A DNA stretch of 7,115 nt. Origin: Alphaproteobacteria bacterium (GTDB lineage Bacteria; Pseudomonadota; Alphaproteobacteria; Thalassobaculales; Thalassobaculaceae). The notes beneath the pieces were generated by a model that ran no database searches, was not told the DNA's origin, and saw only the letters and a program-made list of their open reading frames with translations. The stretch covers positions 1 through 7,115 of the forward strand of contig JAPKDN010000169.1 in the NCBI GenBank assembly GCA_028822575.1. Reading direction: 5' to 3'. The translations under genes were made by a program, and so were the position numbers. Shown here one piece after another: positions 1 to 5,376 of the stretch (its first letter is position 1; each line of letters starts with the position of its first letter).

Positions 1-665
1 AATGGGGGGGTGTATTTTAGAAAACTTTCACATGCCTTACGCAGAGTATCGAAGGTGCGGCGGCCTTCGGCATGATTTGCGCAATTGTTTACAACCAAGC
101 GAATATCGGCGGCGGGATTGGCCAGAATCGTGATCTTAATGAACGCATAGGCATCGGTCAGGGACGTCGGCTCCGTTGTGGTGACGACGATGATTTGGCC
201 GGCGCGACTGGACAGTCCTCTGACCGTGCGATCGATCCCGGCGCCAAGGTCCATGATCACCTGGTCATAATCATCCGACAAATGCACCAGATCCGTGCCG
301 AGCCTAGCTAGGCGGCTGGGCGGCAGTGCGGCCAAGGTGCCGGAGCCGGAGCGCCCCGCCAACACATCGAAATTACCGTCTGGGCAATGGATCTTCGCTT
401 GCGCCAGGGTTATGCGCCCAGAAATAACGCCGCCAAGGTCGCGCTGGGGCATCAGGCCCAGCTGGATATCCACATTTGCCAGGCCTAGATCTGCGTCAAA
501 GAGCAACGCGCGCTGGCCATGTTGGGCGAAGGCATGCGTGAGTGTGACCGAGAACCAGGTCTTACCGACCCCTCCCTTACCGGATGCGACGGCGATGATG
601 TTGCGCCCTTTCTTCAGTGGCTGTGACGTGCCTTGGGCGGACTTGACGTCGGGAGATACGTTCAT
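1..665 (-). CDS. flhG: FlhG (FleN/YlxH) MinD-like flagellar-number ATPase, 5' part only
   Basis: This minus-strand frame starts at ATG 665-663 and stays open to the window edge: 221 codons, with the C-terminus missing. A P-loop of the deviant Walker A type, KGGVGKT, is at residues 30-36. It is followed by FDADLGLANVDIQLGL at 56-71, the hallmark of the MinD/ParA/FlhG family, and DLGAGID at 139-145 (Walker B/switch II). FlhG is known as a membrane-associated ATPase that limits flagellar number and works with FlhF. The position directly after flhF supports flhG over a cell-division minD or a plasmid parA. The start is supported by AAGGA nine bases upstream and an in-frame TAG at 695-693. The N-terminal 29 residues lack the DQAxxLR motif with which canonical FlhG stimulates FlhF. 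It may be transcribed both from the operon and from the sigma-54-like promoter at 814-830. Other names used for such proteins are FleN, YlxH and 'MinD/ParA family protein'. Confidence 0.9.
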   Translation of the reverse strand, partial: MNVSPDVKSAQGTSQPLKKGRNIIAVASGKGGVGKTWFSVTLTHAFAQHGQRALLFDADLGLANVDIQLGLMPQRDLGGVISGRITLAQAKIHCPDGNFDVLAGRSGSGTLAALPPSRLARLGTDLVHLSDDYDQVIMDLGAGIDRTVRGLSSRAGQIIVVTTTEPTSLTDAYAFIKITILANPAADIRLVVNNCANHAEGRRTFDTLRKACESFLKYTPP

Positions 666-674
666 ATCCGAGCA

Positions 675-679
675 TCCTT
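675..679 (-). promoter_or_regulatory. Ribosome binding site of flhG
   Basis: AAGGA lies nine bases upstream of the ATG at 665-663. It fixes this start, because another ATG at 676-674 is in a different frame and an in-frame TAG at 695-693 closes the frame upstream. Confidence 0.6.
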
Positions 680-749
680 GGTTGTTGGCGCGCTAGTTAC
701 GCTTCGATGTAGGGGCCGGCGTTTTGGCCAGGTATTCAACGCTCGAGGC

Positions 750-1745
750 CTAGGGATGGATCCGGCGTTTCTTTGCCGCGTGGCGTCCAAGTGCGTCGTC
801 GTCCGCTTCCGGGAGCAATAGTCGTGCCAGAGCAACGGGATTGAGAGGTTTTAATCCGTCGGTGACGTTTGGACCTACGCCGGCGCCACAAATCGCGAGT
901 TCCCCGGCACTAGCCGCGCTCAGCAGAGCACCATGGCGGCGGGCAACGTCAATGCGGGTGACAATCAATTTTCGCGCACCGAGATCCCGGTAAGCTTCCG
1001 CAAGGTCGCCTGCTTCAAGCGAATCGGTCCCGTCCGAGAGTAGGAGGACAACATCAGCATCAACGGCTTCTATTAACTGCTGTTGGCGGGTAAAGTCGCG
1101 TTCATCGAAAGGGTTTCCGCCGGCGCAATCGATGATCGTCGCCGCTTTTGGGTCACCCGCGGCAATAGCATCGCGCAGCGCCTCCGGATCGCCCGCGCTC
1201 ATCAGGTCGATTTTGAGGATTTTGGTGAATGCCTCGAGTTGCTGAAATCCACCCGCGCGGATTGTATCGGTGGTGATCACGTTGATTGGTCGCCGGGCCA
1301 TAACCGCTTGGGTGGCGAGCTTGGCTGTCGTTACGGTTTTTCCGGCTCCCGGCAGGCCGACCAGCAGGGTGGCCCCAGCGGTTTTTGTGTTCGGAACGGG
1401 GACGAAATTGAACACTTGGTCAAAAGCGCCCGCGAGGGTCAGGTGAGTTTGACCCATGGATAGATTATTGGCGATTGCAAGGATTTGATCGGTTACCGCT
1501 CCTGGCACCCCATGGCGGGAGAGCGCATCACTGATGGCATCCATAGACTCAGGAAATTCGTCGAACCCAAGCTCTTCCTCGAAGCTTTTCTCTTCCTCTA
1601 CAAGGTCGATTGCGGCGGTGATTCGCACCCCTAATCCGTTTTCACCCTTTTGCGAGGAAACGATGATGGCATCATCGCCAAAATGCTCCTTGACCATGCT
1701 CATGGCCTCGGACATCGATGGTGCCGAGAATGTTTTCAGCCGCAT
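750..1745 (-). CDS. flhF: FlhF, SRP-type GTPase for flagellar placement (divergent)
   Basis: FlhF is a signal-recognition-particle-type GTPase that recruits early flagellar parts to the correct site, usually the pole. I chose the start at MRLKTF (331 residues) because the family's N-terminal B domain begins this way. An in-frame ATG at 1769 would add eight residues (MHQANGYA). Residues 1-45 are the B domain, 47-70 an acidic linker (VEEEKSFEEELGF), and about 70-331 the NG GTPase domain. Motifs seen are G1 GLPGAGKT at 130-137, G2 DTIRAGGFQQLEAF at 160-173, G3 DCAGG at 206-210, G4 TRID at 263-266, and a G5-like GAGVGPNVTDGLKPL at 287-301. G3 and G4 differ from the usual DTAGR and TKxD, so guanine recognition or hydrolysis may be altered. 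The gene is shorter than many FlhF proteins because the linker is short. It follows flhA by 52 bases and precedes flhG by 84. Its 3' end contains a sigma-54 promoter consensus. Confidence 0.9.
   Translation of the reverse strand: MRLKTFSAPSMSEAMSMVKEHFGDDAIIVSSQKGENGLGVRITAAIDLVEEEKSFEEELGFDEFPESMDAISDALSRHGVPGAVTDQILAIANNLSMGQTHLTLAGAFDQVFNFVPVPNTKTAGATLLVGLPGAGKTVTTAKLATQAVMARRPINVITTDTIRAGGFQQLEAFTKILKIDLMSAGDPEALRDAIAAGDPKAATIIDCAGGNPFDERDFTRQQQLIEAVDADVVLLLSDGTDSLEAGDLAEAYRDLGARKLIVTRIDVARRHGALLSAASAGELAICGAGVGPNVTDGLKPLNPVALARLLLPEADDDALGRHAAKKRRIHP
814..830 (-). promoter_or_regulatory. Sigma-54 (RpoN) promoter inside the 3' end of flhF, directed at flhG
   Basis: Read on the minus strand, the site is CTGGCACGACTATTGCT. 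It matches YTGGCACG-N4-TTGCW at every constrained position, with the -24 GG at 828-827, the -12 GC at 816-815 and the obligatory ten-base spacing. Transcription would start near 803, leaving a leader of about 138 bases before the flhG ATG. The same bases encode part of LALARLLLPE of FlhF, so a coding coincidence is possible, but a match this complete is very unlikely by chance in 7 kb. The local activator FlbD is an RpoN-dependent regulator of flagellar genes, which makes the site functionally sensible. I could not assign an FlbD binding site with confidence. Confidence 0.7.
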
Positions 1746-1798
1746 CGCATATCCGTTCGCCTGATGCATTCGCGCTCACGCTTCACCACTTTCGCCAT
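1736..1798 (-). other. Possible 20-codon coupling mini-ORF between flhA and flhF
   Basis: An ATG at 1798-1796 shares its A with the flhA stop (TGATG). The frame reads MAKVVKRERECIRRTDMRCG and ends at TGA 1738-1736, nine bases past the first base of the flhF ATG at 1745. It is not in the flhF frame. Ribosomes leaving flhA could pass through it and release next to the flhF start, which lacks a good Shine-Dalgarno. The peptide resembles nothing I know. Coupling is inferred from geometry alone, and the frame could be chance. Confidence 0.25.
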
Positions 1799-3921
1799 CA
1801 GACTTGCCCCAGGGTTCTGATCTTGGCCTTGGGATGTATTTCGTTCTGAGACATGATGACGGTCTGCGGTCTGAAGCGTTCAATGATCGAGCGCACGAAG
1901 GGTCTTGCCGCCGGTGATGTCAACATTACCGGCGCCTCGCCTGCTTGGCCGAATTGATCCATCACCGTGCGTACATTCGAAATGAACTGCTGCAACAGGC
2001 TTGGGGGCATGGATAATTGTCGGTCATCACCCTGTCCGATAATCGATTCCGCGAAGGTTTGCTCCCAGTCCGGGGACATGGTCACGAGGGGGATGGAGCC
2101 GTCGGGGCTGGCATTTTGCTCGCTGATTTGTCGGGCCAGTCGAACGCGGACGTGCTCGGTGAGCTGGGTAACGTTTCGAGTGAAGGCACAGGCTTCAGAG
2201 ACTCCTTCCAGAATTGTTGGCAGGTCCCGTATAGAAACCCGTTCACCAAGGAGATTCTGCAGCACGCGCTGTACGCCGCCGACCGCGATCATGGTTGGCA
2301 CCACGTCTCCAACTAGTTTCTGATGTTGTGGAGGCAGCTCATCTAGTAGCTTTTGGGTCTCCGTATAGGACAGAAGTTCCGGCATGTTGTCGCGAATCAC
2401 CTCGGTGATATGCGTTGTAACCACCGTTGAGGGGTCGACCACCGTATAACCTTTGAACATCGCTTCCTCGCGATTGTCCGGATCCACCCACATCGCCGGT
2501 AACCCAAAAGTGGGCTCTACGGTCTCGGTACCTGGGAGGTCGATGGGCTGTCCACCCGGATCCATAACAAGGAGCCTGTTTGACCTGATGTCGCCCCGGC
2601 CGACCTCGATCTCCTTGATTCGGATGACATAGGTGTTCGCTGGCAACTGCAAATTATCCTGGATACGGACTTGAGGCATGATGAAGCCGCTCTCGGCCGC
2701 CAGTTGTCGGCGGAGCGATTTGATCTGATCGGTCAGGCGCTGACCCTCGGTCTCGGCGCTGACGAGGGGCAGGAGGCCGTAGCCAAGTTCCAGGCGAACC
2801 AAATCGATATGGAGCGCCGATGAGATCGGTTCCTCCAGCAGCGGCGCGTTCTGATCTCCCAGGGCCAACATCTCGGCTTTTTCGACGGCTTCGTCTCGGC
2901 TGCGTTTCAGCAGGAAACCGCCTCCACCTATCAGGATCGCCAGGCCCACAAATGGGATCATTGGGATCCCGGGAAGGAGTGAGAGAATCACCATGAGAAA
3001 CGAACTCAACGCCAGTGCCTTGGGGTAACCACCGAGCTGGCTGAATATCGCCTTGTCCGTCGAGCCGGAGGTTCCGCTTTTGGTGACCAGCATGCCGGCG
3101 GCGGTGGAGACAATAAGCGCTGGAATTTGGCTGACCAAACCATCGCCTACTGTCAGCAACGTATAGGTCTGTGTCGCCTGGCTGAAATCCAAACCCTGTT
3201 GGGCGATTCCAATGATGATTCCGCCGATCACGTTGATCATGGTGATGAGCAGGCCGGCGATGGCATCGCCGCGCACGAACTTTGACGCGCCATCCATCGC
3301 GCCGAAAAACGTGCTTTCGGAATTTAAGTCCTCGCGGCGCGTACGGGCCTCGTCCTCGTTGATCAGGCCGGAAGAGAGATCGGCGTCGATGGCCATCTGC
3401 TTGCCGGGCATCGCGTCCAGGCTGAAGCGCGCCGAAACTTCGGCGATACGCCCTGAACCCTTGGTGATAACGATGAAATTCACGATCACGAGAATCGCGA
3501 AGACGATAACGCCAATCACCGGATTGCCGGCCATCATGAATTGGCCGAAAGCTTCGATCACCTGCCCAGCGGCGTCGGTGCCGGTATGGCCTTCAGCGAG
3601 GATTAGGCGCGTCGATGCCAGATTGAGCGATAGCCTCAGCATGGTCGCGATCAATAGGATCATCGGAAAAGCGTTGAAATCCAAAGGTCTCGTGATGAAT
3701 AAGACCGTCATCAAAATCAAAACTGAAAAAGCGATCGAGATACCGAGCGTTAAATCAAGAAGCCAGGTCGGCATCGGCAGTATAAGAACCGACAGAATCG
3801 CGACGACGCCCAACGCGAGCGCAATATCGCCGCGCTTGGAGATCTGTGCGAGAATATCGGACCCAGAAAAACCAACGCCACCTGCGCCTTCTTTTTGTCC
3901 TTCGTTAGATGCATCCGTCAT
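1798..3921 (-). CDS. flhA: FlhA, flagellar type III export gate protein
   Basis: FlhA is the large membrane component of the flagellar export gate. It couples ion flow to secretion and docks chaperone-substrate complexes. The protein has 707 residues, normal for the family. Hydrophobic segments lie near residues 33-50, 54-75, 84-103, 135-153, 220-240, 262-279, 302-317 and 322-338, giving the expected eight. The FHIPEP-family core is clear: RLSLNLASTRLILAEGH at 96-112, then the cytoplasmic loop with SGRIAEVSARFSLDAMPGKQ (156-175) and MAIDADL (176-182). GDGLVSQIPALIVSTAAG (259-276) is also conserved. Residues from about 340 to 707 form the soluble C-terminal domain, including VDPSTVVTTHITEVI and DLPTILEG. 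The ATG at 3921-3919 is preceded in frame by TAG 3930-3928 and has only a weak AGG a few bases upstream, so translation may depend on flbD. The gene follows flbD by 36 bases. Its TGA at 1800-1798 overlaps an ATG of a 20-codon mini-ORF. A non-flagellar type III homologue is unlikely given the neighbours. Confidence 0.98.
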   Translation of the reverse strand: MTDASNEGQKEGAGGVGFSGSDILAQISKRGDIALALGVVAILSVLILPMPTWLLDLTLGISIAFSVLILMTVLFITRPLDFNAFPMILLIATMLRLSLNLASTRLILAEGHTGTDAAGQVIEAFGQFMMAGNPVIGVIVFAILVIVNFIVITKGSGRIAEVSARFSLDAMPGKQMAIDADLSSGLINEDEARTRREDLNSESTFFGAMDGASKFVRGDAIAGLLITMINVIGGIIIGIAQQGLDFSQATQTYTLLTVGDGLVSQIPALIVSTAAGMLVTKSGTSGSTDKAIFSQLGGYPKALALSSFLMVILSLLPGIPMIPFVGLAILIGGGGFLLKRSRDEAVEKAEMLALGDQNAPLLEEPISSALHIDLVRLELGYGLLPLVSAETEGQRLTDQIKSLRRQLAAESGFIMPQVRIQDNLQLPANTYVIRIKEIEVGRGDIRSNRLLVMDPGGQPIDLPGTETVEPTFGLPAMWVDPDNREEAMFKGYTVVDPSTVVTTHITEVIRDNMPELLSYTETQKLLDELPPQHQKLVGDVVPTMIAVGGVQRVLQNLLGERVSIRDLPTILEGVSEACAFTRNVTQLTEHVRVRLARQISEQNASPDGSIPLVTMSPDWEQTFAESIIGQGDDRQLSMPPSLLQQFISNVRTVMDQFGQAGEAPVMLTSPAARPFVRSIIERFRPQTVIMSQNEIHPKAKIRTLGQV

Positions 3922-3957: not shown

Positions 3958-5376
3958 TTACACGTGGGCCCGTTCCCCGTCGCCGGGAGATCGTACCTGT
4001 AGCCCGGCCTCCGAATAGGCCTTGAGCTTGTTTCGAAGCGTGCGTATCGAAATCCCTAGGATCGTGGCCGCGTGAGTTCGATTGCCAAGGCAATGCTCAA
4101 GCGTATTGATGATCAACTGCCGTTCAACATCTGCGACGGTCCTACCTACCATTGGGGTGCTCTCGTCGTCATCATCCGCGGGCATCGGATTGCTAAGCAT
4201 TGGAGGGGGCGCGGCCGCTGATGCGACGGCCTCGCCCCATGGTGGCAAGGGCGAGGCGATGGGCTCCGCTGATTTAGCTGCGCCGGTCAACGTGATGGAT
4301 TCATCATCGATCTCGTCACCAGCTGAGAGAAGCACCGCGCGATGCATGGTGTTCTCCAACTCTCGGACATTGCCGCGCCAGTGATGGCCCTCGAGGCGCT
4401 TCATTGCGCTTTTGGAGATTGGGCGACAGGGAAGACCATTGGCCTCGGCGTATTTGTCGCCGAAATGTTCAGCCAAGACTCGAATGTCCGCTGGTCGAGC
4501 GCGCAAAGGGGGTAGCTGAAGATTGAAGACGTTGAGTCGAAAATACAGATCTTCGCGAAATTTTCCCTCTGAAACGTGGCGTTCGAGATTGCGATTGGAG
4601 GTGGCGATCACACGAATATCGATCTTCACGGGTTGTGAGCCGCCCACGCGGTCGATTTCTCGTTCCTGGACTGCGCGTAATAGTTTGGCTTGCAGGCGGA
4701 TGTCCATTTCGCTGATTTCATCAAGCAGCAGAGTGCCGCCATCTGCTTCCTCGAACTTGCCAACGCGCCGTGCCACGGCTCCGGTGAAGGCGCCTTTTTC
4801 ATGTCCAAACAACTCCGACTCCAGTAGATTATCCGGAATCGCGGCGCAGTTGACCGAGACGAATTTCTCACCACTGCGCTTACTTTTCGAATGAATGTAG
4901 CGAGCTAAAACCTCTTTACCCGTTCCCGAATCACCGGTGACCAGCACGTTGGCGTCAGATGGGGCAATTTGGTTGGCGAGTTTTAAGGTCCCGGCCATCA
5001 CTGGATCCTTGAAAATAACCGAGGTTTGCTCTTCGGAGACGGCTTGTAGGACGGCGGCGATCATTTCAGGATTTGGGGGGAGTGGGATGTATTCCATGGC
5101 GCCTGCCTTGATGGCGGCGACAGCGGCGTCAGGATCATTGCTGACTCCGCAAGCGACGACCGGGGTGTTGATCCGCTCGTCCCTCATGCTGCGCATGAAC
5201 TTGGCGACCGACAGTTTGATGTCGATCATGACCAGATCCGCGCCTTGACCACCGCGCAGCGCATGCAGCCCGGCGTCGATACTATCGACCTGACTGACCT
5301 TCGCGCCTCGCGCAATCGCGATCTGGCCGGCAGTGCTGATATGCCCTTCGAGCATCCCAACGATCAGCAACCGCAT
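3958..5376 (-). CDS. flbD: FlbD, sigma-54-dependent flagellar transcription activator
   Basis: FlbD is an NtrC-family regulator that activates RpoN-dependent late flagellar genes and can repress early ones. In Caulobacter it is controlled by FliX rather than by classic phosphorylation. The 472 residues fall into a receiver-like domain (1-113), an AAA+ domain (about 124-360), an Ala/Pro-rich linker with an Asp run (about 365-412) and a Fis-type helix-turn-helix (about 418-455, containing RTHAATILGISIRTLRN). The AAA+ motifs are intact: Walker A GDSGTGKE at 148-155, the sigma-54 contact loop GAFTGA at 195-200 and Walker B GGTLLLDEI at 213-221. The receiver keeps an Asp at position 52, but the acidic pair near residues 7-8 is Gly-Met and the usual Lys near 99 is Leu. 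The start is set by AAGGGAG six bases upstream of ATG 5376-5374. The gene lies between motA and flhA, as expected for a flagellar regulator. A generic NtrC-like regulator is less likely because of the locus and the degenerate receiver. Confidence 0.93.
   Translation of the reverse strand: MRLLIVGMLEGHISTAGQIAIARGAKVSQVDSIDAGLHALRGGQGADLVMIDIKLSVAKFMRSMRDERINTPVVACGVSNDPDAAVAAIKAGAMEYIPLPPNPEMIAAVLQAVSEEQTSVIFKDPVMAGTLKLANQIAPSDANVLVTGDSGTGKEVLARYIHSKSKRSGEKFVSVNCAAIPDNLLESELFGHEKGAFTGAVARRVGKFEEADGGTLLLDEISEMDIRLQAKLLRAVQEREIDRVGGSQPVKIDIRVIATSNRNLERHVSEGKFREDLYFRLNVFNLQLPPLRARPADIRVLAEHFGDKYAEANGLPCRPISKSAMKRLEGHHWRGNVRELENTMHRAVLLSAGDEIDDESITLTGAAKSAEPIASPLPPWGEAVASAAAPPPMLSNPMPADDDDESTPMVGRTVADVERQLIINTLEHCLGNRTHAATILGISIRTLRNKLKAYSEAGLQVRSPGDGERAHV

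Follow-up and report, generated by a model that had tools for sequence, protein, structure and literature searches.

The stretch of alphaproteobacterial DNA analyzed here (7,115 nucleotides; hereafter the window) carries on its minus strand a fliH-like gene, fliN, a motA-like gene, flbD, flhA, flhF and flhG. The flbD gene (3958–5376, minus strand) encodes a sigma-54-dependent activator that lies barely over the NCBIfam cut-off (NF050807, 751.3 versus 750 bits); an FlbD orthologue is thus encoded nearby, as expected for a member of an FlbD regulon, and the initial annotation was right to place one about 3 kb upstream in the operon. Further downstream follow flhA (1798–3921, minus strand), which together with flhG provides the background for synonymous change, and flhF (750–1769, minus strand; 339 codons from the first ATG). 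The last gene, flhG (3–665, minus strand), is assigned to the MinD/ParA-type ATPases by Pfam and NCBIfam matches and by its position, and is cut by the end of the window. The first-ATG start of flhF adds eight residues, MHQANGYA (1746–1769); most aligned FlhF relatives start at window codon 9, MRLKTF, which is probably the true start.

A sigma-54 consensus within flhF

Near the end of flhF, positions 814–830 of the minus strand read CTGGCACGACTATTGCT, the sole exact match to TGGCACGN4TTGC in the window. The candidate intragenic promoter (CTGGCACG-ACTA-TTGCT), proposed from this exact match and from synonymous conservation, consists of a −24 element TGGCACG at 823–829 and a −12 element TTGCT at 814–818, both on the minus strand. 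It agrees with the sigma-54 consensus TGGCACG-N4-TTGCW at every constrained position, with GG and GC at the fixed spacing, which bears out the earlier description of a perfect consensus that has no equal on either strand. The accompanying estimate, a chance expectation well below one in a hundred, also holds: the exact consensus occurs in none of 200 dinucleotide shuffles of the window, and a first-order Markov model gives an expectation of 0.006 for both strands. The same site is the only match to YTGGCACGN4TTGCW with up to two mismatches; since by chance alone the window should contain about 0.67 matches of this looser kind, it is the complete lack of mismatches at 814–830 that counts.

The site lies inside a gene, in sense orientation and near a downstream start on the same strand, as intragenic promoters do. 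From the −24/−12 geometry, transcription is predicted to start at 803 (minus strand), 12 bases past the C of the −12 element, which leaves 138 bases up to the flhG ATG at 665. With this predicted start, the flhG transcript would have a 5′ leader of 138 bases (666–803, minus strand) made up of the end of flhF and the intergenic DNA, and corresponding leaders in the listed relatives span about 44–143 bases, with flhG starts judged best by eye. In one relative (L002:5010-6098), FlhF is lengthened to 362 residues and overlaps the flhG start, and the promoter site is still kept.

The 17 bases span flhF codons 314–319, CTG GCA CGA CTA TTG CTC, encoding LARLLL, and the annotation had itself cautioned that they also encode a Leu/Ala/Arg-rich stretch. 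Because this peptide is nearly invariant, it is the proper null for the site. When the codons of flhF were shuffled synonymously with the protein held fixed, 47 of 20,000 shuffles produced an exact match, all 47 at the same place; the peptide therefore allows the motif and does not force it. If only the peptide and the local codon usage mattered, the core would arise with a median probability of 3% per genome, a figure that ignores relatedness and is not to be multiplied across genomes, and a single occurrence would accordingly be weak evidence. This leaves room for an explanation in which the agreement of the LARLLL codons with the consensus is a coincidence shared by descent, and the comparison with related genomes bears directly on it.

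Synonymous conservation among the nearest relatives

Codons were read at 80 loci and at further loci from additional genomes. The nearest relatives fall in the order of genome G015, where 36 genomes were searched. Among these, flhF with the relevant end is present in 25, as a strong hit in 24 and as a contig-end fragment in one. All 25 carry [CT]TGGC[ACG]CG-N4-TTGCT, as does the window. Free synonymous variation of the GG and GC bases among close relatives had been named as the observation that would speak against the promoter; it is absent, the core being kept in every one of these genomes. The site-bearing loci of the order range in GC content from 0.40 to 0.72, and in members of 65–72% GC the codon TTG makes up only about 1–12% of local leucine codons. 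The rare codons of the site are kept even in L018, at 72% GC.

The conserved bases follow a distinct pattern, with TGGC-CG kept, the spacer variable and TTGCT kept, and the alanine codon within the site is GCA in 15 of 24 sequences and GCC or GCG in the other nine. In a codon alignment of 19 sequences, the TTG column stands first among 207 columns with an excess synonymous identity of 0.80, followed by 0.44 for the next. Means over a sliding window of six codons also place the site first at 0.29, by a modest margin over the gene start (0.22) and the segment encoding LSAASA (0.19), the other peaks of synonymous conservation in flhF, both lower than the site. Parsimony on the FlhF tree with 24 sequences assigns no change to the TTG column, compared with 4 to 11 for the other 11 invariant leucine columns of flhF. 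When flhF, flhG and flhA are pooled for 19 taxa, the column again shows no change and ranks first of 85 invariant leucine columns, the remaining 84 having 3 to 10 changes (the next has 3). Just two of the 85 columns are confined to codons ending in TG, and these are the two in which the motif needs them. The spacer leucine column uses five codons, yet it has only 4 changes, fewer than usual. Among fourfold and sixfold degenerate columns, flhG has none with at most one change and flhA has three isolated ones.

Conservation thus extends beyond the demands of the overlapping protein, as expected of a functional intragenic site: the putative promoter sequence is nearly unchanged in the relatives, more than the protein requires, which makes it very likely a genuine switch for the flagellar genes that follow. 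The leucine columns, with no change set against 3 to 10 in the other 84, bring the chance explanation close to refutation, and the retention of rare codons at 72% GC points the same way; despite the near invariance of the peptide, we consider coincidence with shared descent scarcely credible. It is also conceivable that the codons are kept for some other reason, such as an RNA signal, translational pausing, an overlapping frame or another DNA-binding site. Conservation by itself is no proof of transcription and the bases lie shortly upstream of flhG, which leaves this explanation some ground; however, the fixed and free bases fall as a −24/−12 element predicts, and two observations made further afield, described below, also count against it, so that we regard it as improbable.

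Distribution beyond the order and other consensus matches

The wider distribution was followed in a 113-row FlhF alignment, which leaves out L095 (flhF broken in the assembly) and L107 (the contig-end fragment), both of which carry the site, and in which one genome contributes two rows (L020 and L151). All 27 added loci are included; 23 of them were listed at codon level, one of which (L164) is probably misplaced. The full core is present at this place in 34 of the 113 rows, 24 in the order (window included) and 10 outside it (L076, L078, L079, L141–L145, L152 and L156). The site state changes about five times on the tree of these rows, which leaves little independence among the 34. The peptide [LM]AR[LI]LL occurs in 39 rows, and the five of these without the core (L061, L154, L157, L166 and L167) use other codons for the equivalent peptide, a further argument against the chance explanation; L157 and L166 nevertheless keep GG-N10-GC. 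At the protein level, two of 33 aligned FlhF proteins have His or Gln in place of the Arg (P0027, LAHLLL; P0049, LAQFLL), a replacement incompatible with the CG of the −24 element.

Most Azospirillum rows, among the rows listed, have neither the site nor a clear replacement, and the Azospirillum-group row L056 keeps TGGCACG-N4-ATGC. A clade of Niveispirillum/Oleisolibacter type, ten rows (L019, L035, L037, L038, L047, L049, L053, L072, L146 and L148), is without the site and instead carries TGGCCTGGCTTTTGC in the codons for GLAFAD, some 75 bp farther upstream (73 bp in L146 and L148). This element is identical in all ten rows, has GG and GC at the correct spacing and stands in a different frame from the LARLLL site. 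A first conservation test of it was circular, the loci having been picked for containing it; in a tree built regardless of TGGCCTGGCTTTTGC, all ten rows of the clade have it. Seven consecutive codons are unchanged here, which is suggestive and not decisive because 51 of 228 invariant columns in these rows likewise show zero changes. The element is possibly a shifted sigma-54 site, and the occurrence of a similar element upstream in another frame is the first of the two observations that argue against conservation of the codons for a reason other than a promoter.

The second comes from genome-wide scans for the exact 15-mer, covering 11 of the 18 genomes represented by L001–L018. There are 42 matches, compared with 9 for a reversed-pattern control; eight of the 11 genomes have one exact match inside flhF, and in G003, G004, G006 and G009 the flhF site is the sole exact match genome-wide. 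Thirty of the 42 matches were fetched as loci and inspected by eye: 6 lie in flhF, 2 before flgB, 1 in flgF and 21 at loci without a recognized flagellar gene, and the consensus alone is therefore not flagellum-specific. The matches before flgB (recognized by eye) are exact and lie 100 bases from the gene in L133 (G015) and 81 bases in L139 (G013), outside any frame of the kind found in flhF. In Caulobacter, flgB itself is under FlbD control. The last codons of flgF, 115–122 bases before flgG, hold sigma-54-like sites with a perfect match in L172 and a single mismatch each in L170 and L171, and this flgF-end site is absent from the five other loci read (L168, L173, L174, L175 and L177); it is a second intragenic candidate.

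Probable activator, candidate target genes and a possible stage-specific entry into the operon

The proteins that would act at such a promoter are widespread among the relatives. RpoN was found in 60 of 63 (16/18 and 44/45), an FlbD hit above 600 bits in 59 of 63, with 40 of 63 over the NCBIfam cut-off, and FliX in 19 of 20. In Caulobacter, FlbD activates RpoN-dependent rod and hook genes after the export apparatus has formed, together with FliX (PMC3930126, PMC3096577, PMC7064773), and couples rod and hook genes to assembly of that apparatus (PMC7064773, PMC3930126). The initial annotation had proposed an FlbD-driven promoter aimed at flhG. The comparison strongly supports one part of this proposal, a genuine sigma-54 promoter directed at flhG, and FlbD is a plausible activator; a binding site for FlbD did not emerge, no FlbD (ftr) enhancer being claimable by eye in 180 bases upstream and 150 bases downstream of the site in 29 sequences.

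The lack of an FlbD site in the flanks lends some weight to a sigma-54 promoter with a different activator, e.g., an NtrC-type enhancer-binding protein, as does the presence of several other activators of this class in most listed relatives. Furthermore, two draft genomes keep the site with an FlbD hit that is not strong or only partial (G009 and G384; the L009 contig starts about 2.35 kb before flhF). On the other hand, FlbD is encoded in the same operon, and two relatives have this consensus in front of flgB, flgB-type genes being the kind that FlbD controls in Caulobacter (PMC7064773). G162 lacks both a strong FlbD hit and an exact site, and G372 has neither an RpoN hit, nor a strong FlbD hit, nor the site. 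The site is present without an RpoN hit in two small drafts, G002 and G011, and since the genomes concerned are drafts all these absences are uncertain. Another activator is, on balance, unlikely, and FlbD remains the favored candidate. Loss of the site does not track loss of RpoN or FlbD as a rule: G372 and G162 fit such a rule, whereas G326 and G403, from core-less rows with the equivalent peptide, possess both proteins without an exact site.

In L002–L018, a gene for a long protein with a low-complexity N-terminal part adjoins flhG downstream. A weak fold hint in the relatives points to a possible substrate-specificity-switch C-domain. Seven of the proteins gave no match to the hook-length models of Pfam or NCBIfam at E values up to 10, so that membership in FliK was not accepted, and a PDB profile search of the protein returned nothing; with the libraries and the PDB profile negative and the fold hint weak, the gene is named FliK-like only, and its FliK role is presumed. 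The initial annotation had suggested that the promoter raises the FlhG:FlhF ratio. Both this idea and a hook-length role are compatible with the site, and supply of the FliK-like protein at the hook stage would explain the promoter no less well than the ratio.

Intragenic sigma-54 promoters are of a kind already known, from Pseudomonas putida and Escherichia coli (PMC6424431, PMC4591121). In P. putida, PMC6424431 describes PflhF, a sense sigma-54 promoter inside flhA of the flhA-flhF-fleN-fliA operon, which adds transcription of the distal genes including fleN, the flhG counterpart, and is activated by FleQ and antagonized by FleN. The window site resembles PflhF as a putative sense sigma-54 promoter within a coding gene that would serve flhG/fleN; it differs in that PflhF lies in flhA and its transcript includes flhF, whereas the window site lies in flhF and its predicted transcript excludes flhF, and in the activator, FleQ in the one case and likely FlbD in the other (PMC6424431). 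In E. coli, PMC4591121 reports many sense-oriented intragenic sigma-54 sites, many of them conserved, three of which drive the neighboring gene. Their sense orientation within genes is shared by the window site. The leaders of those three are 360–760 nt long, whereas the predicted 138 bases here are ordinary, and, set against the E. coli sites, the window-type site is kept across DNA of 40–72% GC. The likeness to Caulobacter lies in RpoN promoters, FlbD as activator, FliX as its partner and genes of the rod and hook stage (PMC3930126, PMC3096577, PMC7064773); in contrast to its FlbD/RpoN promoters, the flanks of the window-type site showed no ftr element to the eye. According to PMC7064773, Caulobacter uses factors other than FlhF, and the promoter should therefore have no counterpart there. 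Searches of open-licence PMC text brought up neither a sigma-54 promoter that lies within flhF and serves flhG, nor any account of its location in flhF, its depth of conservation or the shifted element in one clade.

Our preferred reading, to which we assign a probability of roughly 80%, is that the 17 bases are an intragenic sigma-54 promoter in flhF that serves flhG and the FliK-like gene and is probably activated by FlbD. Its bases are the sequence, its orientation and spacing, conservation beyond the protein, recurrence in other lineages and the gene order of the relatives; from these we infer promoter activity, activation by FlbD and timing. Early transcription of the operon would yield FlhA, FlhF and FlbD. 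RpoN holoenzyme would then bind the −24/−12 element within the LARLLL codons of flhF, and an AAA+ activator, most likely the FlbD whose gene lies about 3 kb farther up the operon, would open the promoter, with FlbD becoming active only after the MS-ring, C-ring and export apparatus have formed. A transcript from about 803 would include neither flhF nor flhA; it would cover flhG and, if the relatives are a guide, the FliK-like gene next to it. The rod and hook stage would thereby receive additional FlhG together with a protein of the hook-length type, through a stage-specific second entry into the operon.

We also put forward, tentatively and as the less probable case, that the promoter dictates part of FlhF: in this frame the element forces [LMV]-A-R-x-L-L, and the C-terminal LARLLL of these FlhF proteins would then be held partly by DNA regulation rather than by protein function. 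If so, lineages in which the promoter was lost or moved would be free to drift to peptides such as LARMMI, LARLMM and LAKMMM, all of which are seen in the 113-row alignment. The cause could equally run in reverse, a changed peptide removing the promoter. Should the idea hold, the tail of FlhF would be dual-coding and would link the assembly stage to the supply of FlhG and FliK-like protein.

An operon that looks like a single unit would thus have a second, probably stage-specific entry hidden by gene annotation. The site offers a clean case of dual coding, in which synonymous changes alone should abolish the promoter, and it predicts how alphaproteobacteria that combine FlhF/FlhG with FlbD/FliX may deliver FlhG and a hook-length-type protein late in flagellar assembly.
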